A stretch of 64,000 nt of DNA from Anaerostipes caccae L1-92. Lineage in GTDB: Bacteria; Bacillota; Clostridia; Lachnospirales; Lachnospiraceae. The stretch covers positions 1,677,501 through 1,741,500 of the forward strand of contig NZ_AP023027.1 in the NCBI RefSeq assembly GCF_014467075.1, in the 5' to 3' direction. The notes under the pieces were generated by a model. That model did no database searches. It saw only the letters and a program-made list of their open reading frames with translations, and was not told where the DNA came from. This document shows, one piece after another, positions 14,703-27,729 of this stretch. Made by a program: the position numbers and the translations under genes. The first letter of the stretch is position 1. The number at the start of each line of letters is the position of its first letter.

Positions 14703-15674
14703 ATGAAAAAAGTGATTTTAGATTGCGATCCGGGGCATGATGACGCGTTTGCCATGATGCTGGCAGTACAGAATTTAGATGTGCTTGGAATTACCACGAT
14801 CGGCGGTAACTGTACTTTAGAGAATGTGACAAAGAATGCCCTGAAGGTGCTGGAAGTGTTGGGAAGAACTGATATTCCTGTTTTTGCGGGACATTCCTGC
14901 CCTACAACCGTACCTCTTGTAACCGCACCGCAGTTTCATGGTGAAACTGGGCTGGACGGTCCGGTTCTTCCGGAGCCAACTGCCAAAGCACAGGATCAAC
15001 ATGCAGTTGATTTTATTGTGGAAACTGTGATGAACACAGATGATGTCACTCTGATCGCCACAGGCCCGCTGACAAACATTGCAGCAGCTATTAACCGTGA
15101 GCCCAAAATTGTGGAGCGTGTCAAAGAATTAAGTATCATGGGCGGTTCTGTGACTTACGGCAACTGGACCCCGGCAGCAGAATTTAATATTTATGTAGAC
15201 CCGGAAGCAGCCTACCGTGTATTTAACTCAGGAATGCATATTAAAATGTCAGGAATTAATCTGACCAGGCAGTGTTGTCTGACAGCAGAGCATGTGGCCA
15301 AATTCCGTGAAATCGGAACGAAAGCAGCACATTTTGCGGCAGATCTGACAGAATTCTTCATCGATACAACCATTAAGAGTGCATCTCTTTCAGGGGCCAA
15401 TATGCACGATGCCTGTGCGGTGGCATGGCTGATCGACCCGTCTCTGATCAAAGCGGCTGATATGCACATCGACATTGAATTAAAAGGTGAGCTTACCAGG
15501 GGAATGACAGTATGTGATTATCGTCATTTAAGAGGAGTAGAGCCTGCTGTGGATCTGTGCAGAGAGCCGCAGATGGATTTCAGAGGAGAAGCGCCAAACG
15601 CTGAGGCAGCCCTGGAATTAGACTTTCCGGGATTTATGGATCTGCTGTATAAGACGCTTAAAAACTATAACTGA
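14703..15674 (+). CDS. Nucleoside hydrolase (IUNH family), first copy
   Basis: This 323-residue protein has the calcium-binding N-terminal motif ILDCDPGHDD, the GGNCTLENV segment, the EFNIYVDPEAA motif and the active-site His in MHDACAVAW. These are the hallmarks of inosine-uridine-preferring nucleoside hydrolases, which split ribonucleosides to ribose and base in the cytoplasm. A AAAGGAG site precedes the ATG. The stop TGA overlaps the following ATG (TGATG). It should supply ribose to the ribokinase encoded downstream. Base preference cannot be read from the sequence. Confidence 0.92.
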   Translation: MKKVILDCDPGHDDAFAMMLAVQNLDVLGITTIGGNCTLENVTKNALKVLEVLGRTDIPVFAGHSCPTTVPLVTAPQFHGETGLDGPVLPEPTAKAQDQHAVDFIVETVMNTDDVTLIATGPLTNIAAAINREPKIVERVKELSIMGGSVTYGNWTPAAEFNIYVDPEAAYRVFNSGMHIKMSGINLTRQCCLTAEHVAKFREIGTKAAHFAADLTEFFIDTTIKSASLSGANMHDACAVAWLIDPSLIKAADMHIDIELKGELTRGMTVCDYRHLRGVEPAVDLCREPQMDFRGEAPNAEAALELDFPGFMDLLYKTLKNYN

Positions 15675-16339
15675 TGAAGTATCAGATGGTCTTATGGGAC
15701 TTTGACGGCACTCTGGCTTATACTGGCAGGGATGTATGGATTACTTTGGAACATGCCGCAGCGAAATGCGGCGGCAGGCTGCCCAAAGAGTTTACCGGCA
15801 GGGACAGTAATCTTGGAAAAACGGTGAAAGAAGTTTTTCATCAGATCATTCCAAAGCCGGAAGAAGAGAAATATGAGATGTTTGAGGAAGTGGTAAGAGT
15901 ACATTACCGTACGCTCAACGATTACCAGAATACATATCTCTATCCCGGAATCCGCCAACTGCTTTTGAAAACCAGGGCAGCAGGAATGATCCATTTTATC
16001 ATTACCATGAAACCGCAGGAAGCATTGGAAAAGATCCTTAAGCAAAAAGACTGGAAAGCATTGTTCGACGGCTGGATATCTCCGGATTCTTTCCCGGGGG
16101 CTGAACGAACAAAAAGTGAGATGATCACCGATGTAATGCGCAAGTCAGGATTGGAGGCAAGTCAGTATGTCTATATCGGGGACACATGGAGTGATGTGGA
16201 TGCTGCATGTGAAAATGGAATTGACTGTATTGGGGTGACATACGGAGACGGAGATACAAAACAGCTTTGTGCCCGCAAACCTAAATACTGTGCACAGGAT
16301 GTTTCAGAAATAGAAAAAATTATAAAAGAAGGTGTGTAA
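15674..16339 (+). CDS. HAD-superfamily phosphatase (phosphoglycolate phosphatase-like)
   Basis: This 221-residue protein carries motif I DFDGTLAY, a Thr motif II in FIITMK and motif IV GDTWSDVDAA. An alpha-helical cap lies between motifs I and II. The class removes phosphate from small metabolites or sugar phosphates. Its start overlaps the stop of the nucleoside hydrolase gene by one base, so it belongs to the riboside operon. It may limit toxic accumulation of a sugar phosphate or hydrolyse a nucleotide. The substrate is not known. Confidence 0.85.
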   Translation: MKYQMVLWDFDGTLAYTGRDVWITLEHAAAKCGGRLPKEFTGRDSNLGKTVKEVFHQIIPKPEEEKYEMFEEVVRVHYRTLNDYQNTYLYPGIRQLLLKTRAAGMIHFIITMKPQEALEKILKQKDWKALFDGWISPDSFPGAERTKSEMITDVMRKSGLEASQYVYIGDTWSDVDAACENGIDCIGVTYGDGDTKQLCARKPKYCAQDVSEIEKIIKEGV

Positions 16340-16342
16340 AAG

Positions 16343-17545
16343 ATGCTCAAGGATTTTAACTTATGTATTGATACCAAATTTGTTTTTGGAAAAGATGCGC
16401 AAAATCAGATTGGAAGCGAATTAAAGCAGATGGGGATCCGAAAAGTTTTGATCCACCATGACGATGGAAAATTTTTGTACGATACCGGACTTTTGGATCA
16501 GGTGAAGGAACAGCTTAAAAAAGAAGGAATCGAAACGCTGGAACTTGGCGGGGTCCTGCCGAATCCAAGACTGTCTCTTGTAAAAGAAGGAATTTTTCTG
16601 GCAAAGGAAGAACATGCAGATATGGTACTGGCGATTGGCGGAGGAAGCGTGATTGATTCTGCCAAGGCGATCGGGCTGGGAGCAGTGACGGATATAGATG
16701 TATGGGACTTTTTTACGGGAACAGAAGTGCCCAAAAAGTCTCTGCCCACAGGCGTGATCCTTACCTGCCCGGCAACCGGAAGTGAATCCAGTGAAGTAAG
16801 TGTAATAAACAATACTGAGATTGGAATGAAACTTTTGGTCAGCAATCCGATCCTGCGTCCGGCAATCGCGTTTATGAATCCGGAATTGACCTGTTCGCTG
16901 CCAAAGTTTTTGACTGCATGCGGTGTTGTGGATATGTTTTCCCATGTATGTGAGAGATATTTCTCACCGGATGGGGAGATTGGAGTGATCGACCGGATGT
17001 CAGAAGGAATCCTGAAAACCTTGGTTGAGGTTGGGCCTAAAGTTCTCGCAGATCCGGACAATTATTCTTACCGCGCAGAGATCATGTGGATCGGAACGAT
17101 AGCACATAACGATACCGTCGGCATTGGCCGAATCCAGGACTGGGCAACCCATGAAATCGGAAATGAATTAAGTGCTCTGTATGATACGCCGCATGGCGCC
17201 ACACTTTCTATTATTATGGGATCCTGGATGCGGTATGTATATAAGGAAGACCCTAAACGGTTTGCCCGCTATGCGAAAGAAGTATTTGGAGTGGATTGGA
17301 ACGGAGACAATACATTGGAGGCAGCGTATAAAGGGATTCTGAAAACAGAAGAGTTTTTCCGGAGCATGGGAATGCCGGTATCATTTGAGGACTTCAGGAT
17401 TCCTACAGATGAAGTGGAAAAGATGCTTGACCAGATCGCTTTCCGCGGTGAAGATGACAGCATTGGAGGCATAAAAAGACTGAATCGGGATGACTGCCGC
17501 AGCATTTATAAGATGGCATTTTCATTTCGAAAAACTGACGAGTGA
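16343..17545 (+). CDS. Iron-containing alcohol dehydrogenase (butanol dehydrogenase type)
   Basis: This 400-residue protein has the dinucleotide loop GGGSVIDSAKA and the metal-site pattern of group III alcohol dehydrogenases: an Asp/His pair in VVDMFSHVCERY and His residues in WATHEIG and YDTPHGAT. The enzyme would interconvert an aldehyde and an alcohol with NAD(P)H. It starts 3 bases after the HAD stop. In a pentose catabolic operon it may reduce a sugar-derived aldehyde and act as an electron sink. A similar protein is encoded at 41157. Confidence 0.9.
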   Translation: MLKDFNLCIDTKFVFGKDAQNQIGSELKQMGIRKVLIHHDDGKFLYDTGLLDQVKEQLKKEGIETLELGGVLPNPRLSLVKEGIFLAKEEHADMVLAIGGGSVIDSAKAIGLGAVTDIDVWDFFTGTEVPKKSLPTGVILTCPATGSESSEVSVINNTEIGMKLLVSNPILRPAIAFMNPELTCSLPKFLTACGVVDMFSHVCERYFSPDGEIGVIDRMSEGILKTLVEVGPKVLADPDNYSYRAEIMWIGTIAHNDTVGIGRIQDWATHEIGNELSALYDTPHGATLSIIMGSWMRYVYKEDPKRFARYAKEVFGVDWNGDNTLEAAYKGILKTEEFFRSMGMPVSFEDFRIPTDEVEKMLDQIAFRGEDDSIGGIKRLNRDDCRSIYKMAFSFRKTDE

Positions 17546-17556
17546 GTGAGGGTAAT

Positions 17557-18450
17557 ATGAAAATACTTAATTTTGGTTCTTTAAATATTGATTATGTTTA
17601 CAGCGTAAGCCATTTTGTAGAAAAGGGAGAGACGATCTCCTCTAATACGCTGGATGTGTTTCCGGGAGGGAAAGGACTTAACCAGTCCATTGCGCTCGGC
17701 AGAGCAGGGGGAGATGTTTATCATGCAGGAATCATCGGGGAAGACGGAAGGTTTTTAAGCGAACTTCTCTGTGATGCAGAGGTTGATACCCGCTATCTGA
17801 GGATCAGTGAGGATGTCAGGACTGGAAATGCAGTGATTCAGAAAGACCGGAAGGGAGATAACTGTATTATTTTGTACGGCGGTGCAAATCAAGCGGTCAC
17901 AAAAGAGATGGCGGATCAGGTTCTCAGGGAATTTCACGAAGGGGACTGCCTGATCCTGCAAAATGAAATCAGTGAGATTCCGTATATTGTAGAAAAAGCA
18001 CATGAAAGGGGAATGCAGATTGTTCTGAATCCATCTCCAATGGATGAAAAGATTTTTGATATTAATCTAAATCACATTGACTGTTTCATTCTAAATGAAG
18101 TGGAAGCGCGTACACTGGTTCAGTCAGATGCAGATCAGGATGTTTTACTAAAACAGCTTACACAACGGTTTCCTCATGCTGAAATCGTTCTTACTCTTGG
18201 AGAAAACGGTTCGATGTATGCGGGAACAGAAGGAGTGGCAGAGCAGAAAGCATATAAAGTGGAAACGGTAGATACCACCGCGGCAGGAGATACCTTCACC
18301 GGCTATTATATGGCTGCAAGACTGCAGGGGCAAACTGTGAAAAAAGCACTTCACATGGCTTCGAAAGCATCTGCGATCGCGGTCTCTATGGAAGGTGCGG
18401 CGCCGTCTATCCCGAAAAAGGATGAGGTAGAGCGGTTTGAGGAAGACTAA
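17557..18450 (+). CDS. Ribokinase-type PfkB kinase
   Basis: This 297-residue kinase shows FGSLNIDYVY at the N terminus, the ribose-binding FPGGKGLNQ motif close to that of RbsK, and the C-terminal DTTAAGDTFTGY where AAGD replaces GAGD and the catalytic Asp stays. The start at 17557 is preceded by a GTGAGGG site; an upstream GTG at 17542 overlaps the dehydrogenase stop and is less likely. It probably makes ribose 5-phosphate from the ribose freed by the two nucleoside hydrolases encoded on either side. Confidence 0.9.
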   Translation: MKILNFGSLNIDYVYSVSHFVEKGETISSNTLDVFPGGKGLNQSIALGRAGGDVYHAGIIGEDGRFLSELLCDAEVDTRYLRISEDVRTGNAVIQKDRKGDNCIILYGGANQAVTKEMADQVLREFHEGDCLILQNEISEIPYIVEKAHERGMQIVLNPSPMDEKIFDINLNHIDCFILNEVEARTLVQSDADQDVLLKQLTQRFPHAEIVLTLGENGSMYAGTEGVAEQKAYKVETVDTTAAGDTFTGYYMAARLQGQTVKKALHMASKASAIAVSMEGAAPSIPKKDEVERFEED

Positions 18451-18497
18451 GAAAAAGCGGATTTACTGTTTATGCTAATTATACTAGGAGGAACACC

Positions 18498-19424
18498 ATG
18501 GAAACAAGAAAAATAATCATTGATACGGATCCGGGGATCGATGATGCGGCGGCAATTTCAGTCATGCTGTCCGAGCCGTCCCTGGATGTGAAGCTGATCG
18601 CCAGTGTATCAGGAAATGTTGGTATTGAACACACCACAAACAATGCATTAAAGCTGCTGACATTTCTGAAAAAGGATGTCCCGGTGGCAAAAGGTGCAGC
18701 GGCTCCTCTTTTAAGGGACAACAGATTTGCAACAAATGCGCATGGAAAATCCGGTATGGGAGGGTTTGAATTTCCTGAACCTAACAAGGAGCTTTTGTTA
18801 AAAGAAAATGCAGTTCTGAGCGAATATCGGGTGCTGATGGAGTCAGAAGAGAAGGTAACGATCCTCACGCTTGGTCCGCTGACCAATATCGCTCTGCTGA
18901 TCTCGACGTTTCCTGAGGTCAAAGAAAAAATCCAGGAAATCGTTACTATGGGCGGTTCTACAGAAAGAGGGAACATAGGCATTTATGGAGAGTTTAATGT
19001 AACCATTGATCCGGAAGCGGCGAAAATCGTATTTCGTTCCGGCATTCCGATCACCATGGTTGGATTAGATATTGGAAGAAAGGCCAGACTTACAGTGGAA
19101 GACCTTGAGAAACTGGAAGAGAGCGGAGAGACGGGAAGAATGATCAGTTCCCTGTTCCGTTCTTATGACGGCGGCCATGTGGAAGAGGGAGTTAAGATGT
19201 ATGATCCTTCTGCGGCCATGTATCTGATGGAGCCGGAACTGTTTGAAACAAAAGACGCTTTTATCGATGTGGAAATCTCCAGCCCGCTTACCATGGGTGC
19301 CACAGCGGTAGATTTTGACGGTACATTAAGTGAAACAAAGAACGCTGCAGTGTGTGTGGATGTGGATGCAGAACGTTTCCGCAGACGATATGTGAAGAGA
19401 GTCGCAGACACGGAATGTAAATAA
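18498..19424 (+). CDS. Nucleoside hydrolase (IUNH family), second copy
   Basis: This 308-residue protein has the calcium motif IIDTDPGIDDA, the GNVGIEHTT segment, the LTLGPLTNIA strand and EFNVTIDPEAA. Where most family members carry a His in an HDP motif near the base-binding site, it has MYDPSAAM, with Tyr instead of His. This may change leaving-group activation or base preference relative to the first copy at 14703. A GGAGG site lies upstream of the ATG. It is 47 bases after the ribokinase gene and 39 before the MFS gene. Confidence 0.9.
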   Translation: METRKIIIDTDPGIDDAAAISVMLSEPSLDVKLIASVSGNVGIEHTTNNALKLLTFLKKDVPVAKGAAAPLLRDNRFATNAHGKSGMGGFEFPEPNKELLLKENAVLSEYRVLMESEEKVTILTLGPLTNIALLISTFPEVKEKIQEIVTMGGSTERGNIGIYGEFNVTIDPEAAKIVFRSGIPITMVGLDIGRKARLTVEDLEKLEESGETGRMISSLFRSYDGGHVEEGVKMYDPSAAMYLMEPELFETKDAFIDVEISSPLTMGATAVDFDGTLSETKNAAVCVDVDAERFRRRYVKRVADTECK

Positions 19425-19463
19425 ACAATATGAAAAACATTATTGAAAGGTATGGTATAAAAA

Positions 19464-20900
19464 ATGTCTAATACAAATATAAAAACAACAGGTATCCCGG
19501 TACCTGCGGAAGGAACACCAGAATTTGAAAAAATGAACCGTATGGCAAAGCGTGCAATCCCATTGGTGCTGATCATCTTTATTTTTGGTATTCTTGAGCA
19601 GCAGGCATTCGGAATGATCTTTGTAAATATCGGTCAGCAGCTGGGAACACCGGAACTTGCATCCCTGATCACATCCCTTCCGGGTATTGCTCTCGGTATT
19701 GTCTGTGTTATCTACGGATCTCTGGGTGACTTTGTATCTCTAAAGAAAATGACCCTTTTAGGAACTATTGTATTTGCTGTTGGCTCTGCGATTGGATTCC
19801 TTCTGGGGCCAGTGAGCATCTGGGCGGTTGTAGCGGCGCGTATGCTTCAGTCTATAGGCGGTCAGGTGGCAGGATCTGTATTCCTGGTCCTTGTGTCCAA
19901 ATACATTTCTCAGAAAGAGCGTGTAGTTTATTACGGTATTTTTGTGGCAGTATTCAGATTTTCAGCGGCCCTCGGTGTAGTAGCAGCCGGATATGTAACA
20001 AAAATTGACTGGAGATGGATGTTTGCGATCCCGATGATCTCTGTTATATTTCTTCCGGCGCTTTCAAAGAACCTTCCGGATGAACACGCAAAAGGCGCTA
20101 AGATTGACGGCTGGGGCTTCACTTTAATCGGTGCTTTTGCAGGTGCCATCACAATGTTCTTTACTGACATGAATATGCTCTGGACCGTTGCAACCGTTGT
20201 AACTCTGGTAGCCTTTATCGTGTACATCAACAAAGCAGAAGACCCGATCATTACCCCGGCATTCTTAAAGAATCCAGCATTTGTGGCAACTATGGTAGTT
20301 ATCTTCGTAGGTTACTTCTTCAGCTATACACTGAACGCCGGTGTAAATGCCATTGGACTTGAGGTGTTTGGTATTGATTCTGCTCAGGTTTCCAACCTGC
20401 TTGTATGGTCTATCCTCCTGGCGGCAGTACTTGGATTCGTGTGCGGACCGGTCATCAAAAAAATCGGGCGTTCTGCAGCGATCATTATGGCTCTTTCAGC
20501 CATGGGACTCGGACTGATTGCCATTGCGTTTGCGATTCCTTACGGTAAATATGCAGCACTGGCGGCAGCACCATGTATCTACTACTTCGGAACATCTTTC
20601 TTCTACTCACCGATCGTAGACACGGCAACACTTACGGTATCGCCGGAAGAGTCAGGGCGTGTCCTGGGAATCAATGACCTTGTACAGGCGATCACGGGAT
20701 CTGTCGGTGTGGCAGTCTTTGGACAGCTCATGTCAAAGGGTGCAATGTCAGGAGGAAGTATTGCAGGCGTTGAAGCGGGAGCTGCATCTACCTATGCGAA
20801 TGTATTCCTGGTAGGCGGTGTTATTGTTCTTGCAGCATTGGTGATCTTTATCGTAACAAAGAAAATGATCTACAGCCGCTCAAGAAAAGATGACGAATAA
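19464..20900 (+). CDS. MFS transporter with about 12-14 membrane segments
   Basis: This 478-residue membrane protein has the MFS pattern of repeated hydrophobic helices. It has a GDFVSLKK loop between helices 2 and 3, the RMLQSIGGQVAGS helix typical of the drug:H+ antiporter-2 group, and a repeated loop in the second half (KKIGRS). It ends in a basic/acidic tail. As the last gene of the riboside operon it may import a nucleoside or sugar or export a product. The family call is firm; the substrate is inferred from context only. A strong terminator follows. Confidence 0.88.
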   Translation: MSNTNIKTTGIPVPAEGTPEFEKMNRMAKRAIPLVLIIFIFGILEQQAFGMIFVNIGQQLGTPELASLITSLPGIALGIVCVIYGSLGDFVSLKKMTLLGTIVFAVGSAIGFLLGPVSIWAVVAARMLQSIGGQVAGSVFLVLVSKYISQKERVVYYGIFVAVFRFSAALGVVAAGYVTKIDWRWMFAIPMISVIFLPALSKNLPDEHAKGAKIDGWGFTLIGAFAGAITMFFTDMNMLWTVATVVTLVAFIVYINKAEDPIITPAFLKNPAFVATMVVIFVGYFFSYTLNAGVNAIGLEVFGIDSAQVSNLLVWSILLAAVLGFVCGPVIKKIGRSAAIIMALSAMGLGLIAIAFAIPYGKYAALAAAPCIYYFGTSFFYSPIVDTATLTVSPEESGRVLGINDLVQAITGSVGVAVFGQLMSKGAMSGGSIAGVEAGAASTYANVFLVGGVIVLAALVIFIVTKKMIYSRSRKDDE

Positions 20901-20970: not shown

Positions 20971-21011
20971 GAATCTTATTGGAGACAGCAAGCAGGAGAA
21001 CTGGTCAAAAT
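20970..21011. repeat. Degenerate half copy of the inverted-repeat element found at 48175-48268
   Basis: GAGACAGCAAGC followed by a diverged GGA segment and then ACTGGTCAAAATG match, on the opposite strand, one arm of the element at 48175. An AATCTTA block upstream also matches, with a four-base gap. The DeoR stop codon (21005-21007) lies inside it. Confidence 0.5.
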
Positions 21012-21748
21012 GTTACTTTGATTCCCTTGCTCTCCAGCTCTGACTTGGAAGCCTCAGAAATTTGATCATCGGTAATCACTGTCTTGACCTGTTCTTTTAG
21101 GTTGAGAGGGACAATTCCGTGTTTAGAAAATTTGTCACTTTCTGTTAATACGACAACCTGACCGGCCTGCAGGGCCATATCCCGTACAGCCTGTGCCCGC
21201 ATCTGGTCACGATTGGTAAAGCCGGCTTTGGGAGTATAACCGTCTGTTCCGATAAAAAATAAATCTACAAGAAAATTTTCTACACAGGGACGAATCATCG
21301 GGCCTACCATGACCTGGGAATCCTGCTGATAAATGCCGCCTAAGAGAATGATCTGAAAGTTTGATTTTCCCCTGATATGGTCTGCGATAAAAGCACTGTT
21401 GGTAATAATCGTCAAATCTTTTTTGGAAGAGGCCAGCTCATCTGCCAAGAGAGCACAGCAGCTGCCGCTTTCGATCATAACCGTATCGCCGTCACAGATC
21501 AATTCGGCCGCTTTCTTGGCGATTTTTCGTTTTGCTTCATAATGGTAGGCGATTCTCCCGTTAATATCGTCCGTGCTGCATAAGAGTGCAAATCCGTGTT
21601 CACGCTTTATGATTCCTTTGTTTTCCAGTTCATCTAAGTCCTTTCTGACAGTAACCTGGGAAACACCAAGTTGTTCGGAAAGCTGTGATACTTCAATTTT
21701 ATTTTTTTGGGTGAGAAGCTCCAAAATCTTATTTGTCCTGTTTTTCAT
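21005..21748 (-). CDS. DeoR-family transcriptional regulator
   Basis: This 247-residue protein has an N-terminal DeoR helix-turn-helix (VSQLSEQLGVSQVTVRKDLDEL) and a C-terminal sugar-phosphate-sensing domain with GDTVMIESGS and FIGTDGYTPKAG. Such regulators bind a phosphosugar and release DNA. The gene follows the activase gene on the same strand and stands beside the glycyl radical enzyme gene. That makes it the likely regulator of the anhydrosugar-type cluster, through the operator-like repeats at 22814-22847. Its last codons lie in a repeat fragment. Confidence 0.9.
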   Translation of the reverse strand: MKNRTNKILELLTQKNKIEVSQLSEQLGVSQVTVRKDLDELENKGIIKREHGFALLCSTDDINGRIAYHYEAKRKIAKKAAELICDGDTVMIESGSCCALLADELASSKKDLTIITNSAFIADHIRGKSNFQIILLGGIYQQDSQVMVGPMIRPCVENFLVDLFFIGTDGYTPKAGFTNRDQMRAQAVRDMALQAGQVVVLTESDKFSKHGIVPLNLKEQVKTVITDDQISEASKSELESKGIKVTF

Positions 21749-21861
21749 ATGATGACTCCGTTCGTATGTTGTAGCATTGTGATATTTTACTTTGTTTCCT
21801 AGTATACCACAAATAAAGATTCAATCAATGAGGTAAAGTTACGAATGAAAGAACATGCTGC

Positions 21862-22776
21862 TTAAAAAAATGCAAGAATCCCGCAATCAATCATTGTTTG
21901 AAGATAATCCTGCAAATCCTCCCTGTGCATAGACGGTATATCATGGTAATCATACGCCTGACCCAATAAATCATATTTGTTTTCACCGAACTGATGAAAA
22001 GGAAGCAGCTGACACTTATCTGCTCCGGCTTTCAGCAGGGTGTCTGCCAGCCTGGCGGCATCTTCAAAGGAGTCGTTGAATCCCGGGATCACAGGAATTC
22101 TTGGGAGGACTTCTTTTCCTGCTTGGATGGCGTGCTTCATATTAAATAGAGGAAGATCATTGGATACACCGGTGCCCTCTTTGTGTTTTGCGGTATTCCA
22201 ATGTTTCATATCAAATAGTATGTAATCAAGATGTTTTATTACGCCGTTAAAGATTTCCGGATCAGCAAATCCTGTTGTCTCACAGCAAGTATGCAGTCCA
22301 TTTTCCTTAGAGGCAAGCAGCAGTTCAGCGGCAAATTCGGGCTGGGAAAGGAATTCACCGCCGGAAAGAGTAATGCCGCCGCCGCTTTCTTCATAAAAAT
22401 CTTTATCCTGCAGCACTACATTAAGGACTTCCTGTACTGTCTTGGTTTCCCCTTCTGATTTTAATGCTTTACCGGGACATTCGAGTACACATTGTCTGCA
22501 TCCGATGCATTTCTCTGCATGAACGCGGATGTGGTCCTGAATCAAAGAAATTGCTTTGGACGGACATACATCTATGCAGTGATGACACCCAATACATTTT
22601 TTTTGATCCCATAGAATCTGGATCTCTGAAAGCTGGCTTTCGGGATTTGAACACCAGCGGCAGTGCATAGGGCAGCCTTTAAAAAAAACAACCGTTCGGA
22701 TGCCTGGACCGTCATTGACACTAAATTTTTGAATATTAAAAACAACACCTGTTTTTTTATAATCTGCTTTTTTCAT
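21862..22776 (-). CDS. Glycyl radical enzyme activase (radical SAM, PflC/YbiY type)
   Basis: This 304-residue protein has the radical SAM cluster Cys35, Cys39 and Cys42 (CxxxCxxC) followed by two ferredoxin-type [4Fe-4S] motifs (Cys61/64/67/71 and Cys90/93/96/100). The GGGITLSGGE segment is the SAM-binding region of this family. It installs the glycyl radical on its partner. The inserted ferredoxin domain separates it from the short pyruvate formate-lyase activase. The gene is divergent from the glycyl radical enzyme gene, with a shared 180-base regulatory region. Confidence 0.94.
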   Translation of the reverse strand: MKKADYKKTGVVFNIQKFSVNDGPGIRTVVFFKGCPMHCRWCSNPESQLSEIQILWDQKKCIGCHHCIDVCPSKAISLIQDHIRVHAEKCIGCRQCVLECPGKALKSEGETKTVQEVLNVVLQDKDFYEESGGGITLSGGEFLSQPEFAAELLLASKENGLHTCCETTGFADPEIFNGVIKHLDYILFDMKHWNTAKHKEGTGVSNDLPLFNMKHAIQAGKEVLPRIPVIPGFNDSFEDAARLADTLLKAGADKCQLLPFHQFGENKYDLLGQAYDYHDIPSMHREDLQDYLQTMIDCGILAFF

Positions 22777-22798
22777 AGTAATCTCCTTTGCTGACTAA

Positions 22799-22827
22799 AT
22801 CATAACATATTTGTTTCGATTTGAAAA
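22799..22827 (-). promoter_or_regulatory. Candidate promoter of the activase gene
   Basis: On the minus strand TTTTCA (22822-22827) and TATGAT (22799-22804) are 17 bases apart. The -35 box overlaps the first operator-like repeat. Confidence 0.5.
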
Positions 22828-22847
22828 TAAAAACTTTCAAATGAAAG
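22814..22847. promoter_or_regulatory. Paired TTTC/GAAA operator-like repeats between divergent genes
   Basis: TTTCGATTTGAAA at 22814-22826 and the palindrome CTTTCAAATGAAAG at 22834-22847 have centres about 20 bases apart. TTTC...GAAA sites are typical of DeoR-family operators. Control by the nearby DeoR protein is inferred. Confidence 0.5.
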
Positions 22848-22874
22848 AATAATTAATTTTAATACAAAAACATC

Positions 22875-22903
22875 TTGACAAATATTTGGAAATGATGTAG
22901 ATT
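22875..22903 (+). promoter_or_regulatory. Promoter of the glycyl radical enzyme gene
   Basis: TTGACA at 22875-22880 and TAGATT at 22898-22903 are spaced by 17 bases, 55 bases before the start codon. Confidence 0.6.
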
Positions 22904-22957
22904 TAAATTACAAACAAAACAAAGAAATATTACGAGTGAAATTTAAAGGAGGAGCTT

Positions 22958-25372
22958 ATGGAAAATAAAGCGCATTTTGGATCACTGACAGACAGAATGA
23001 GTGCTTTTCGTGAAGAAGTCTTGGATGAGAAACCCTATATCGATGCTGAGAGGGCATTGCTGGCGACTCAGGCCTATAAAGAGAATCAGAATCAGCCCCG
23101 TGTTATGGTGAGAGCGCTTATGCTGAAGAAGATTTTGGAAAACATGACGATTTACATTGAAGACAAATCTGTGATCGCCGGCAACCAGGCAACGAAGAAT
23201 GCCAATGCTCCGATTTTTCCCGAATACACAATGGAATTTATTCTGAACGAATTGGATCTCTTTGAGAAGAGAGATGGAGATGTATTTTATATAACAGAAG
23301 AAACAAAACAGCAGCTTCGTGAGATTGCACCATTTTGGGAGAATAATAATCTGCGCGCAAGAGGTGAGGCGCTTCTTCCTGATGAAGTCAGTGTCTTTAT
23401 GGAAACCGGTGTTTTCGGCATGGAAGGAAAACTAAATGCAGGAGATGCCCATTTAGCAGTGAATTATGAAAGACTTCTGGCTGAGGGATTGAAAGGATAT
23501 GAAGAAAGAACAAAGGCTTTCAAAGATGCTCTTGACTTTACTGATCCGGAGAGTGTTGATAAAAATGAATTTTATAAGGCTGTCTTGATTGTGATTGAGG
23601 CGGTTCATCATTTTGCACTGCGTTACAGCAGACTGGCAGAAGAATTAGCAGGCAAAGAGAAGGACCCGAAGAGAAAAGCAGAACTGGAAGAGATGAGCAG
23701 GATTTGTTCTAAGGTTCCGTATGAACCTGCATCTTCTTTCAAAGAAGCTGTACAGTCTGTCTGGTTCATTCAGCTGATCCTGCAGATCGAGTCAAACGGA
23801 CACTCTTTAAGTTACGGAAGGTTTGACCAGTATATGTATCCGTATTATAAAAAAGAGATTCAGGACGGAACGATGACAGAGGAAGAGGCAGGAGAAATCC
23901 TGACATGTCTCTGGATCAAGACACTGACCATCAATAAAATAAGATCCCAGGCACATACCTTAAGTTCAGCCGGCTCTCCTATGTATCAGAATGTTACGAT
24001 CGGCGGACAGACACCGGATAAGAAAGATGCGGTGAATGAATTAAGTTTTGCAGTACTTAAATCTGTTGCACAGACAAGGCTTACCCAGCCCAACCTGACG
24101 GTGCGGTATCATCAAAATATCAACAAGCAGTTTTTTGACGAATGTATCGAAGTTATGAAGCTTGGATTTGGAATGCCGGCACTGAACAATGACGAAATTA
24201 TCATACCTTCTTTTATCAACTGGGGTGTCAAAGAAGAGGACGCTTATAATTACAGCGCCATTGGATGTGTAGAGACCGCAGTTCCCGGCAAGTGGGGATA
24301 CCGCTGTACGGGAATGTCTTATATCAATTTTCCGAGAGTTCTGCTCTGTGCCATGAATAATGGCGTGGATCTGACAAGCGGAAAGAGATTTACAAAAGGT
24401 TATGGTTATTTTAAGGATATGGACTCCTATGAGGATCTGCTGGCAGCGTGGGATAAGACTGTAAGAGAAATGACCCGTTACAGTGTCATTGTTGAGAATG
24501 TCATCGATAAAGCATCTGAAAGAGATGTGCCGGATATTCTCTGCTCTGCGCTTACGGATGACTGCATCGGAAGAGGAAAGACCATCAAAGAAGGCGGAGC
24601 TGTTTATGATTTTATTTCCGGACTTCAGGTTGGAATTGCAAATATGGCAGATTCTCTGGCTGCGATTAAGCAGCTTGTTTACGAAGAAAAGAAAATTACA
24701 AAGGAGCAGCTCTGGAATGCGATTCTTGATGATTTCCAGTCTCCGGAGAATCAGAAGATTCAGGAGATGCTGGTCAATGACGTACCAAAGTACGGCAATG
24801 ACAATGACGATGTAGACCTGCTGGTTCTTGAAGCATATGATTCTTACTTAGATGAAATCAAGAAATATCCAAACACTCGTTATCAGAGAGGACCGATCGG
24901 AGGGATACGCTACGGCGGCACATCTTCCATCAGTGCCAATGTGGGGCAGGGTATGGGAACTAAGGCAACGCCGGATGGAAGAAATGCATTTGAACCTTTA
25001 GCGGAAGGCTGCAGTCCTGCACATAATGCGGATAAAAACGGACCGACCGCGGTATTTAAAACTGTTTCTAAACTTCCCACAGAGAAAATAACCGGAGGTG
25101 TCTTATTAAATCAGAAGATGACGCCGCAGATGCTTTCTACGGAAGAGAACAAACAAAAGCTGGAAATGCTGATCCGTACATTTTTCAACCGACTGCACGG
25201 ATATCATGTACAGTATAATATTGTGTCAAAAGAAACGCTGCTGGATGCGCAGGTACATCCGGAGGACCATAAAGATCTGATTGTCCGTGTGGCCGGATAC
25301 AGTGCATTCTTCAATGTACTTTCTAAAAAAACACAGGATGATATTATTGAAAGAACAGAGCAGACACTGTAA
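22958..25372 (+). CDS. Glycyl radical enzyme of the YbiW/PflD type (anhydrosugar-6-phosphate lyase-like)
   Basis: This 804-residue protein has the thiyl Cys437 with Glu439 in AIGCVETAV and the radical-bearing Gly780 in RVAGYSAFF. There is no CC pair, so it is not pyruvate formate-lyase. The segments GDAHLAVN, LQIESNGHS, GKWGYRCTGM and YNIVSRETL-like HVQYNIVSKETL resemble E. coli YbiW, whose length (about 810) is also close. From memory, YbiW and PflD open the ring of 1,5-anhydroglucitol- or anhydromannitol-6-phosphate to give 1-deoxyfructose 6-phosphate. An FSA-type aldolase gene follows directly, as expected for that route. A GGAGGAG site precedes the ATG. Which anhydrosugar is used is unknown. 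Confidence 0.85.
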   Translation: MENKAHFGSLTDRMSAFREEVLDEKPYIDAERALLATQAYKENQNQPRVMVRALMLKKILENMTIYIEDKSVIAGNQATKNANAPIFPEYTMEFILNELDLFEKRDGDVFYITEETKQQLREIAPFWENNNLRARGEALLPDEVSVFMETGVFGMEGKLNAGDAHLAVNYERLLAEGLKGYEERTKAFKDALDFTDPESVDKNEFYKAVLIVIEAVHHFALRYSRLAEELAGKEKDPKRKAELEEMSRICSKVPYEPASSFKEAVQSVWFIQLILQIESNGHSLSYGRFDQYMYPYYKKEIQDGTMTEEEAGEILTCLWIKTLTINKIRSQAHTLSSAGSPMYQNVTIGGQTPDKKDAVNELSFAVLKSVAQTRLTQPNLTVRYHQNINKQFFDECIEVMKLGFGMPALNNDEIIIPSFINWGVKEEDAYNYSAIGCVETAVPGKWGYRCTGMSYINFPRVLLCAMNNGVDLTSGKRFTKGYGYFKDMDSYEDLLAAWDKTVREMTRYSVIVENVIDKASERDVPDILCSALTDDCIGRGKTIKEGGAVYDFISGLQVGIANMADSLAAIKQLVYEEKKITKEQLWNAILDDFQSPENQKIQEMLVNDVPKYGNDNDDVDLLVLEAYDSYLDEIKKYPNTRYQRGPIGGIRYGGTSSISANVGQGMGTKATPDGRNAFEPLAEGCSPAHNADKNGPTAVFKTVSKLPTEKITGGVLLNQKMTPQMLSTEENKQKLEMLIRTFFNRLHGYHVQYNIVSKETLLDAQVHPEDHKDLIVRVAGYSAFFNVLSKKTQDDIIERTEQTL

Positions 25373-25390
25373 TTGAAAGGAAGATTTACC

Positions 25391-26068
25391 ATGAAATTAA
25401 TGATTGATGATGCGAACATCGAACGGATTAAGGAAATTTACGAATTTTATCCGGTGGATGGTGTGACCACGAATCCATCTATTTTGGCTAAAAGTAAAAG
25501 AAGTCCTTATGATGTACTCAAAGAAATCCGTGAGTTTATCGGGGATGAAGCGGAACTTCATGTGCAGACTGTGTCAGGCGATGCGCATGGAATTGCTGAA
25601 GAGGCACATAAAATCGTCAAAGAGCTCGGAAAGAATACTTATGTAAAAATTCCGGCTGTTCCTGAAGGATTTAAGGCAATGCAGGAATTAAAGAAAGAGG
25701 GTATTAAACTGACGGCAACTGCGGTTTATACACCGATGCAGGCGTTCCTTGCAGCAAAGAGCGGGGCATCCTACGCAGCCCCTTATATTAACCGGATTGA
25801 TAATATGGGATATAACGGTATCCAGGCTGCAAAAAAAATCCATGATATTTTCAGGAATAATGGACTGAACACAGAAGTGCTGGCAGCCAGCTTTAAGAAT
25901 TCTCAGCAGGTGCTGGAACTATGTGAATACGGAATCGGCGCTTCTACAGCCGCACCGGATGTGATTGAAGGATTGGTAAAAAATCAGGCAATCACATCAG
26001 CGATTGATGACTTTGTGAAAGATTTTGAGGGATTAACAGGCATAGGAAAGAACATGACCAGCTGCTGA
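25391..26068 (+). CDS. Fructose-6-phosphate aldolase / transaldolase-like protein (FSA family)
   Basis: This 225-residue TIM-barrel protein has the early motif VTTNPSILA, the Schiff-base Lys86 in YVKIPAVPEG, ATAVYTPMQA and APYINRID. Its size matches FSA or the short transaldolase rather than full-length transaldolase. The ATG at 25391 has an AAAGGA site; an in-frame ATG at 25373 touches the previous stop and lacks one. Coupled to the glycyl radical enzyme it would cleave 1-deoxyfructose 6-phosphate to hydroxyacetone and glyceraldehyde 3-phosphate. A role as ordinary transaldolase is possible. Confidence 0.88.
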   Translation: MKLMIDDANIERIKEIYEFYPVDGVTTNPSILAKSKRSPYDVLKEIREFIGDEAELHVQTVSGDAHGIAEEAHKIVKELGKNTYVKIPAVPEGFKAMQELKKEGIKLTATAVYTPMQAFLAAKSGASYAAPYINRIDNMGYNGIQAAKKIHDIFRNNGLNTEVLAASFKNSQQVLELCEYGIGASTAAPDVIEGLVKNQAITSAIDDFVKDFEGLTGIGKNMTSC

Positions 26069-26276: not shown

Positions 26277-27254
26277 ATGGTCAGATTTGCAGTAATCGGA
26301 ACAAATTTTATAACAGACAATTTCATGGATGCGGGGAGCCAATGTGAAGGCTTTAAGGTTCAGGCAGTGTATTCAAGGAGTATGGAAAAGGCAAAAGAGT
26401 ATGCAGAGAAATATGGGATCGAAGACTGCTATGATTCCCTTGATGCTCTGGCGGCTGCAAAAGACATCGATGCAGTTTACGTGGCATCTCCCAACGCGCT
26501 CCATGCAGGACAGAGTATAAAGATGCTGAAAGCCGGCAAGCATGTCCTGTGTGAAAAAACCATTGCATCTAATTCCGGCGAATTAGAGCAGATGCTCAAG
26601 GCCGCAGAAGAAAATCAAGTCATGGTCATTGAAGCGATGCGTTCCGTGTTCGACCCTGGTTTTGCGGCAATTCAGGAAAATCTTCCGAAGCTCGGAAAGA
26701 TCCGCAGGGCAACGTTCCAGTACTGCCAGTATTCCAGCCGGTATGACAATTTTAAAAAAGGAATCATAGAAAACGCATTTAAACCGGAGCTGTCCAACGG
26801 ATCTCTGATGGATATCGGCGTCTACTGTGTGCATCCGATGGTAAAACTGTTCGGACTGCCCAATGAAATCTCAGCTCACTGCCTGAAACTTTCCAACGGA
26901 GTGGATGCGTCCGGAACCATTGTGGCTATGTATGATGAAATGCAGGCGGAGCTTATGTACTCTAAGATTACAAATTCCGCACTTCCAAGCCAGATCCAGG
27001 GAGAAGAGGCTTCTATGATCATAACGGAAATTCCGGATACAACAAAGATCGAGATTGTCTATCGGAACGGTGATAGAGAAGAGATCAAAATAGACAAAAA
27101 GGCCAACAACATGTATTATGAGATAGAGGAATTCATTCGGCTGGCAGAGGCAAAAGAAAGTGCGCAGATACATAATCAGTACTCTGTATTGGAGCTGAAG
27201 GTCATGGATGAAGCGAGAAAACAGATGGGAATCGTATTCCCGGCAGATCAATAG
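26277..27254 (+). CDS. Gfo/Idh/MocA-family oxidoreductase
   Basis: This 325-residue protein has an N-terminal Rossmann fold (FAVIGTNFIT), the family motif VLCEKTIAS (Lys of the EKP motif; here EKT) and the GSLMDIGVYCVH segment with the catalytic Asp and His. It would oxidise or reduce a sugar with NAD(P). It has its own promoter and lies downstream of a terminator, but sits beside the glycyl radical cluster. Since 1,5-anhydrofructose reductases belong to this superfamily, a link to anhydrosugar supply is possible but unproven. The next gene starts 10 bases after its stop. Confidence 0.87.
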   Translation: MVRFAVIGTNFITDNFMDAGSQCEGFKVQAVYSRSMEKAKEYAEKYGIEDCYDSLDALAAAKDIDAVYVASPNALHAGQSIKMLKAGKHVLCEKTIASNSGELEQMLKAAEENQVMVIEAMRSVFDPGFAAIQENLPKLGKIRRATFQYCQYSSRYDNFKKGIIENAFKPELSNGSLMDIGVYCVHPMVKLFGLPNEISAHCLKLSNGVDASGTIVAMYDEMQAELMYSKITNSALPSQIQGEEASMIITEIPDTTKIEIVYRNGDREEIKIDKKANNMYYEIEEFIRLAEAKESAQIHNQYSVLELKVMDEARKQMGIVFPADQ

Positions 27255-27264
27255 GGAGGAAGTC

Positions 27265-27729
27265 ATGGAAGATATCAAAACATTAATTGATCAGATGAAC
27301 GAGGAGCAGAAAGAACTTGTTCTCAAATCATTCACAAACGAAGAAGCCTGTGCTTTGGGTATCCAAATGTACCAGAAAGCTTTGAAAGAAAACAAACCGA
27401 TTGTCATTTCCATTACAAAGAACAGAAAGCAGATTTTTTATGCGGCAATGGAGGGCACGTCTAAGAACAACGAAGACTGGGTCCGCAGGAAAGAAAACAC
27501 GGTTTATGATTTTGAAAAAAGTTCTTACGAAATGAAATTGTCGATGGATCTCAAACAGGATGACATGTGGAATCGGTATGGGCTGGAAAAAGGTGATTAT
27601 GCGCAGGCAGGAGGAAGCATTCCGGTCTTTGTTTCCGGGACAGGAATGATCGGAACCGTGACCGTATCCGGAATGGCTCAAAGTGAAGACCACGCCTTTG
27701 TAACAGAGGCATTAAAAACGCTGAAATAA
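27265..27729 (+). CDS. UPF0303 / GlcG-HbpS-like protein
   Basis: This 154-residue protein has the pattern of the UPF0303 (YBR137W-like) family: an N-terminal helix, SITKNRKQIFYAAMEG, a central KNEDW-like NNEDWVRRKE and the C-terminal QAGGSIPVFVSGTGMIGTVTVSG. The GGAGGAAG site selects the ATG at 27265; the frame also runs back into the end of the previous gene. Related proteins have been called heme-binding or heme-degrading, but the enzymatic role is unsettled. It is co-transcribed with the Gfo/Idh gene. Confidence 0.78.
   Translation: MEDIKTLIDQMNEEQKELVLKSFTNEEACALGIQMYQKALKENKPIVISITKNRKQIFYAAMEGTSKNNEDWVRRKENTVYDFEKSSYEMKLSMDLKQDDMWNRYGLEKGDYAQAGGSIPVFVSGTGMIGTVTVSGMAQSEDHAFVTEALKTLK

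Follow-up and report, generated by a model that had tools for sequence, protein, structure and literature searches.

What does the glycyl radical enzyme (GRE) encoded beside an FSA-type aldolase in Anaerostipes caccae L1-92 act on? One candidate is a phosphate of 1,5-anhydroglucitol, a sugar alcohol found in food and blood that serves as a marker of glycaemia; which commensals degrade it bears on that use. Passages of a 2025 review (PMC12441222, citing Ma et al.) have E. coli YbiW converting 1,5-anhydroglucitol-6-phosphate, and E. coli PflD 1,5-anhydromannitol-6-phosphate, to 1-deoxyfructose-6-phosphate, bearing out the YbiW and PflD biochemistry put forward in a preliminary description of this locus.

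Parts of the locus

The locus lies in a 64,000-nucleotide stretch of DNA (the window, to which coordinates without a locus name refer) of a 3.59-Mb, single-contig genome. A unit at 21005-26068 comprises a DeoR-type regulator and a GRE activase on the minus strand and the GRE and an FSA-type aldolase on the plus strand. The features of the region are as follows:

21005..21748, minus strand: DeoR/GlpR-type transcriptional regulator (PF00455, PF08220)
21839..21850, plus strand: predicted operator site TTACGAATGAAA, upstream of the regulator gene (motif match)
21862..22776, minus strand: radical SAM activase of the GRE, carrying a ferredoxin insertion and transcribed divergently from it (TIGR02494, PF04055, Fer4)
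22835..22846, plus strand: predicted operator site TTTCAAATGAAA, between activase and GRE (motif match)
22875..22903, plus strand: predicted sigma-70-like promoter TTGACA-17-TAGATT, directed toward the GRE (counted by eye)
22930..22941, plus strand: predicted operator site TTACGAGTGAAA, just 5' of the GRE start (motif match)
22958..25372, plus strand: YbiW-class GRE, 804 aa, probable ring-opening 1,5-anhydroglucitol-6-phosphate lyase (from sequence)
25391..26068, plus strand: FSA-type aldolase, 225 aa from the ATG, probable 1-deoxyfructose-6-phosphate aldolase (PF00923)
26277..27254, plus strand: downstream Gfo/Idh/MocA oxidoreductase, association uncertain (domain match)

All parts named in the preliminary description were found at their positions among the open reading frames of the window. 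Its extent, 21862..26068, was too short: it did not reach the DeoR-type gene (21005-21748), apparently a part of the same unit as the activase, GRE, and aldolase genes. Farther upstream, at 14703-20900, nucleoside hydrolases, a HAD phosphatase, an Fe-ADH, a PfkB kinase, and an MFS transporter are encoded in what looks like a nucleoside scavenging operon.

The ferredoxin insertion ascribed to the activase is there, in the form of Radical_SAM and 4Fe-4S ferredoxin domains; the CxxxCxxC of the radical SAM type is C35/C39/C42 (counted on the translation), and the protein scores 337 bits against TIGR02494 (cut-off, 174). The aldolase gene does follow the GRE directly, as first described. Its open reading frame starts mechanically at TTG 25373, but the likelier start is ATG 25391, 18 bases past the GRE stop codon. 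The protein has 35% identity with FsaA, and a Lys and a Tyr of the catalytic region are among the residues that do not vary across five aligned FSAs. We kept the label to "FSA-type" because the match to PF00923 is clear (184 bits, Pfam) and the score against TIGR00875 (fructose-6-phosphate aldolase) is below the cut-off (212.7 versus 245.95 bits). An FSA-type aldolase, the partner expected in radical-mediated glycolysis (anhydroglycolysis), is adjacent to the GRE.

Class of the glycyl radical enzyme

The domains of the GRE (PF02901, 708 bits; PF01228, 116 bits; Pfam), its Cys/Glu/Gly set, and its activase place it among the PFL2/glycerol dehydratase-type glycyl radical enzymes, and it scores 931 bits against TIGR01774 (NCBIfam), above the cut-off of 678. 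C437, E439, and G780, picked out in the preliminary description, are all present in the alignment; the GCVE motif has a single Cys, where the genome's own PFL1 has CC. The best solved match, at 864 bits, is 6xs4, a YbiW-like entry that bears the label formate C-acetyltransferase; two YbiW chains score 855 bits, followed by glycerol dehydratase (604), 9rco (565), and PflD (477). Overall identity is 50% to the oxygen-sensitive E. coli YbiW, close enough to the solved YbiW chains to settle the fold, and 37% to PflD. The resemblance to YbiW in several segments, suggested earlier, amounts to 71% identity in 11 motif segments picked by eye: of their 272 positions, 192 are identical in YbiW, 113 (42%) in PflD, 124 (46%) in glycerol dehydratase, and 127 (47%) in 9rco.

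For comparison within the group, we scanned genome contigs for relatives, found 445, and kept the best 80 (74 to 97% identical). In an alignment of 80 clade rows (79 of these 80 loci plus the window, L022 being left out for an in-frame stop), 53 positions are invariant in the clade and YbiW and differ in all five contrast GREs (PflD, 8id0, glycerol dehydratase, 9rco, and L006, a second GRE of the same genome). They include W446, R449, C450, T451, G452, M453, and S454, in the loop that follows the catalytic Cys. The window GRE, YbiW, L083, and L088 also have a six-residue insert, YxRGPI/V, that PflD and glycerol dehydratase lack. The window GRE thus has both the active-site loop and the YxRGP insert of the YbiW class, features that we defined from our own alignment and not from a published source.

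In a 19-row tree that draws 12 relatives from the 80 loci, YbiW, the window GRE, and these 12 relatives form one group with support of 100/100. The assignment proposed at the outset therefore survives a tree that could have placed the enzyme in another class. PflD, 8id0, and the L006 GRE group together (100/99), with the window GRE outside, and so do glycerol dehydratase and 9rco (100/99). These groupings are to be read with the program's long-branch warnings for L006, YbiW, 9rco, and 8id0 and with the meeting of the long YbiW and PflD-group branches, and the tree does not fix the position of YbiW inside its group. The same grouping, with weaker support (81/85), came out of an earlier tree of 26 rows; its branches were very long, and we rebuilt it without PFL1, L008, L009, and partial PDB rows. 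Judged by alignment and tree, the window GRE is a YbiW-class enzyme.

Since it is of this class, and given what the review passages say of YbiW (PMC12441222), 1,5-anhydroglucitol-6-phosphate is its likely substrate. The enzyme could instead open 1,5-anhydromannitol-6-phosphate or another epimer, such as an anhydrogalactitol phosphate, with the rest of the route unchanged. The product and downstream enzymes would be common to both, as far as those passages go, and 50% identity to YbiW may leave room for a changed substrate. We nevertheless consider an epimer unlikely: the loop CVETAV-GKWGYRCTGMS agrees with YbiW and disagrees with PflD, the clade carries the 53 YbiW-diagnostic positions, and a different, looser filter leaves only 5 clade-invariant positions that PflD has in common with the clade but YbiW, glycerol dehydratase, and 9rco do not. 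A separate PflD-type cassette is also present in the genome.

Gene context, operator-like sites, and the entry step

The best 80 of the 445 relatives come from Lachnospiraceae, Erysipelotrichaceae, Selenomonadaceae, Atopobiaceae, Enterococcus, Vagococcus, and others. Of the named loci, that of Anaerostipes hominis is nearest, its GRE being 97% identical; one protein cluster at 97% bears both Hungatella and Anaerostipes labels. Within its own family, the window GRE has matches at E values up to 1e-280 in 10 of 299 genomes, its own included.

Neighbours were counted in 81 loci, these best 80 of 445 plus the window, by tblastn (E up to 1e-8, at least 100 aa), so that distant homologues may be missed; we preferred these counts because antisense open reading frames make clustered counts unreliable in GC-rich loci. 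Within 3 kb of the GRE, an activase is found in 77 loci, a DeoR-type regulator in 59, an FSA in 53, a ROK sugar kinase in 17, a Gfo-type gene in 10, and a GldA-like gene in 5. The neighbourhood of GRE and FSA is not due to chance. No FSA was found within 3 kb in 28 of the 81 loci, four of which are cut off by a contig end no more than 0.8 kb downstream and a fifth, L024, at 2.0 kb. In nine further loci of the family (one a repeat of L016), an FSA is adjacent or near in six and was not found in three, and a ROK is present in two. The FSA is therefore not obligatory at the locus. In A. hominis BG01, whose GRE is 97% identical, the FSA gene (L012:12440-12850) appears degraded or misassembled; the 53 include its 145-aa fragment.

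Several loci are more complete than the window. GRE, FSA, GldA-like gene, and ROK occur together in L035, L040, and L047 (the ROK lies 3.7 kb off in L035); in L157, GRE, FSA, and ROK follow one another, with activase and DeoR divergent; and in L154 what reads by eye as an ABC transporter is joined by a ROK, GRE, activase, an epimerase-like gene, and FSA. With a kinase and GldA in their context, such relatives would supply functions needed by the pathway. L155 and L156 have GREs 55 to 57% identical, with an FSA, beside NitT/TauT-looking ABC transporter genes (by eye), and the wider GRE group that includes them may hold several substrates. Upstream of the GRE in L017, L024, and L026 are genes clustering with alpha-amylase and branching enzyme (Pfam, for the L026 copies); they are a possible link to starch-derived 1,5-anhydrofructose, or could reflect plain synteny.

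The context also bears on a reading in which the GRE dehydrates glycerol, a diol, or another compound and the FSA is an incidental neighbour. Glycerol dehydratase is indeed its next best solved relative, at the 604 bits given above. This reading is very improbable given an FSA within 3 kb in 53 of the 81 loci, the tree, which sets the window GRE apart from glycerol dehydratase, and the replacement in the window GRE of the Asp (Asp447) in the GWHD loop of glycerol dehydratase.

The downstream Gfo/Idh/MocA gene was an attractive candidate for a 1,5-anhydrofructose reductase because such reductases belong to this superfamily. The identification is not supported: the best solved relatives are the uncharacterised oxidoreductases 2ho5 and 4iq0 (149 bits), followed at a distance by the dimeric dihydrodiol dehydrogenase 2o48 (81.5 bits) and the bacterial 1,5-anhydrofructose reductases 4koa (71) and 2glx (59). 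Dimeric dihydrodiol dehydrogenase is given as the human 1,5-anhydrofructose reductase in a passage of the review (PMC12441222). Gfo-type genes near the relatives' GREs belong to more than one subfamily, and the Selenomonas neighbour belongs to a different subfamily from that of the window. Behind the Gfo/Idh gene, at 27265-27729, is a small HbpS-like protein (PF03928), a homologue of which lies near the GRE in only 3 of the 81 loci.

From the upstream regions of the relatives (up to 330 bases) we derived the motif TTWCRARYGAAA. It occurs in 66 of the 81 regions, in 104 copies, a count that is partly circular given its origin. The reversed motif is found in none of the 81, and the motif itself nowhere within 195 kb of GRE coding sequence. 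The window has three copies, at 21839, 22835, and 22930, where 0.25 are expected in 64 kb; three or more arose in 1 of 100 shuffles. All three are confined to the surroundings of the regulator, activase, and GRE, and the sigma-70-like promoter at 22875..22903 sits between two of them. The fairer, genome-wide count, made with exact TTWCRARYGAAA only, is 15 sites, versus 10 for the reversed control, with 3 of the 15 at the window locus. Eleven of the other 12 lie within open reading frames of at least 110 aa, and one is intergenic in a ribosomal-protein region. No uptake gene was seen behind these 12 exact sites. One intra-frame site (L140) falls within the 3' portion of a PTS EIIC gene, with the gene of a BglG-like PTS regulator following ∼190 bases later; it is the sole exact match near uptake genes and, considered as an operator, was taken for chance.

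A third alternative has the cassette belonging to the upstream nucleoside-ribose run and acting on a pentose phosphate. Those genes do lie directly upstream in the window. Of the two genes of the run that were counted, however, few relatives keep a copy nearby: within 10 kb of the GRE, a homologue of the Fe-ADH is found in only 5 of the 81 loci and one of the PfkB kinase in only 3, the window included. With the three operator-like sites lying only around the regulator, activase, and GRE, we give this alternative hardly any weight and retain the reading as an anhydroglucitol cassette.

How would the anhydrosugar enter? The preliminary description was right that neither a kinase nor a PTS adjoins the unit at the window locus. 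The only ROK protein of the genome is 26 to 30% identical to six linked ROKs of the relatives and sits among MurB-like and HPr kinase-like genes (by eye). The genome has 21 PTS_EIIC matches, none beside the window genes. According to a passage of the review (PMC12441222), E. coli anhydrohexitols are phosphorylated by a PTS before GRE cleavage; since a PTS is reported for that route, a PTS encoded elsewhere in the genome appears the likeliest carrier of 1,5-anhydroglucitol. The linked ROKs suggest a dedicated kinase for the entry step in the relatives, which makes that step directly testable. The nearest solved protein to the L037 ROK is the beta-glucoside kinase 4htl (137 bits), which would suit an enzyme phosphorylating a ring ether that lacks a free anomeric centre. 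The six linked ROKs fall into at least two groups, with 52 to 70% identity within one and 25 to 28% across (L020 and L154 share 41%); the link may therefore have been gained or replaced more than once.

The genome has five PFL-like genes: the window GRE, L006, L008, L009, and PFL1 (L007). At L006:5666-11161, a PflD-type GRE (658 bits) is accompanied by an activase, an FSA 69% identical to that of the window, and a fructose-type PTS. With L006 of the PflD type and the window GRE of the YbiW type, the genome has counterparts to both E. coli branches. At L008:7941-11914 (G000:C1, about 715440-719410), an 803-aa GRE, an activase, and an FSA lie beside mannose-type PTS genes. The nearest solved GRE scores only 355 bits, and among 246 genomes of the order this type turns up, at E values up to 1e-150, in its own alone; by these scores it is possibly a new GRE class. 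At L009:7313-12409, a fructose-type PTS adjoins a GRE (best solved match, only 265 bits) and an activase; a DeoR-like gene is close by, and no FSA is adjacent. The PTS labels were read from translations, and PF02378 matches back those of L006 and L009. Homologues of the FSA number six full-length proteins and one 39-residue fragment match in the genome. A gldA-fsaA-GRE-PTS row of Streptococcus anginosus is listed in Table 4 of PMC12282319 as 30- to 146-fold up in serum-like medium.

Proposed pathway and known systems

The unit is probably a DeoR-controlled catabolic cassette for 1,5-anhydroglucitol that works by the YbiW-type pathway, a reading drawn from sequence and gene context. The anhydrohexitol would enter the cell and be phosphorylated at O6 by an unlinked PTS or kinase. 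By analogy with its family, the activase would place the radical on Gly780. Under anaerobic conditions, and following the work on YbiW, Cys437 would abstract a hydrogen from bound 1,5-anhydroglucitol-6-phosphate, and the ring C-O bond would break to give 1-deoxyfructose-6-phosphate. The adjacent FSA could then split this product into glyceraldehyde-3-phosphate and hydroxyacetone, and a GldA-type dehydrogenase could reduce hydroxyacetone to 1,2-propanediol. Ma et al. (JACS 2024; 146:26187) reportedly ascribed these two steps to FsaA/FsaB and GldA. A GldA homologue, 54% identical to E. coli GldA, is encoded unlinked in the genome.

The interpretation first put forward is supported by the tree, the context, and the review; of the two substrates that it named, 1,5-anhydroglucitol-6-phosphate is favoured. 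The idea has a precedent, the pathway having appeared in print in 2024, and the window unit is ordinary in kind and well supported. What we add, having searched the open-licence literature and claiming no priority, is a Gram-positive member, the operator-like sites, and the kinase linkage. More tentatively, Gram-positive gut bacteria might have a PTS-independent branch, in which a ROK 1,5-anhydrohexitol 6-kinase, ABC-fed in L154, leads to a YbiW-type enzyme, with L008 as a new GRE class opening or dehydrating another sugar-alcohol phosphate; we think it somewhat doubtful that both hold. If they did, GRE plus FSA would be a general module. The extra GRE-FSA cassettes point to further candidate substrates.

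Among known systems, the B12-independent glycerol dehydratase (1r8w) has the enzyme family, the Cys/Glu/Gly set, and the NGHS motif in common with the window GRE, which differs in its active-site loop and insert and falls in a separate tree group. The E. coli PflD/PflC/FsaB/GldA/Frw PTS system matches the window pathway in kind of chemistry and in product, as far as the source passages describe it. Unlike E. coli, which has both, the window lacks a linked PTS and GldA, and its GRE, at 37% identity, lacks the HD pair of the PflD loop. The closest counterpart is E. coli YbiW/YbiY/FsaA, with which the window shares GRE class, active-site segments, activase type, FSA partner, and the absence of a PTS among the neighbours. 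Gene order differs: the window FSA lies directly behind the GRE with the activase divergent, whereas E. coli carries ybiY in line with ybiW and has a divergent fsaA. Compared with the YbiW system, the window also has a DeoR-type gene and operator-like sites, and some of the relatives' loci have a linked ROK kinase.
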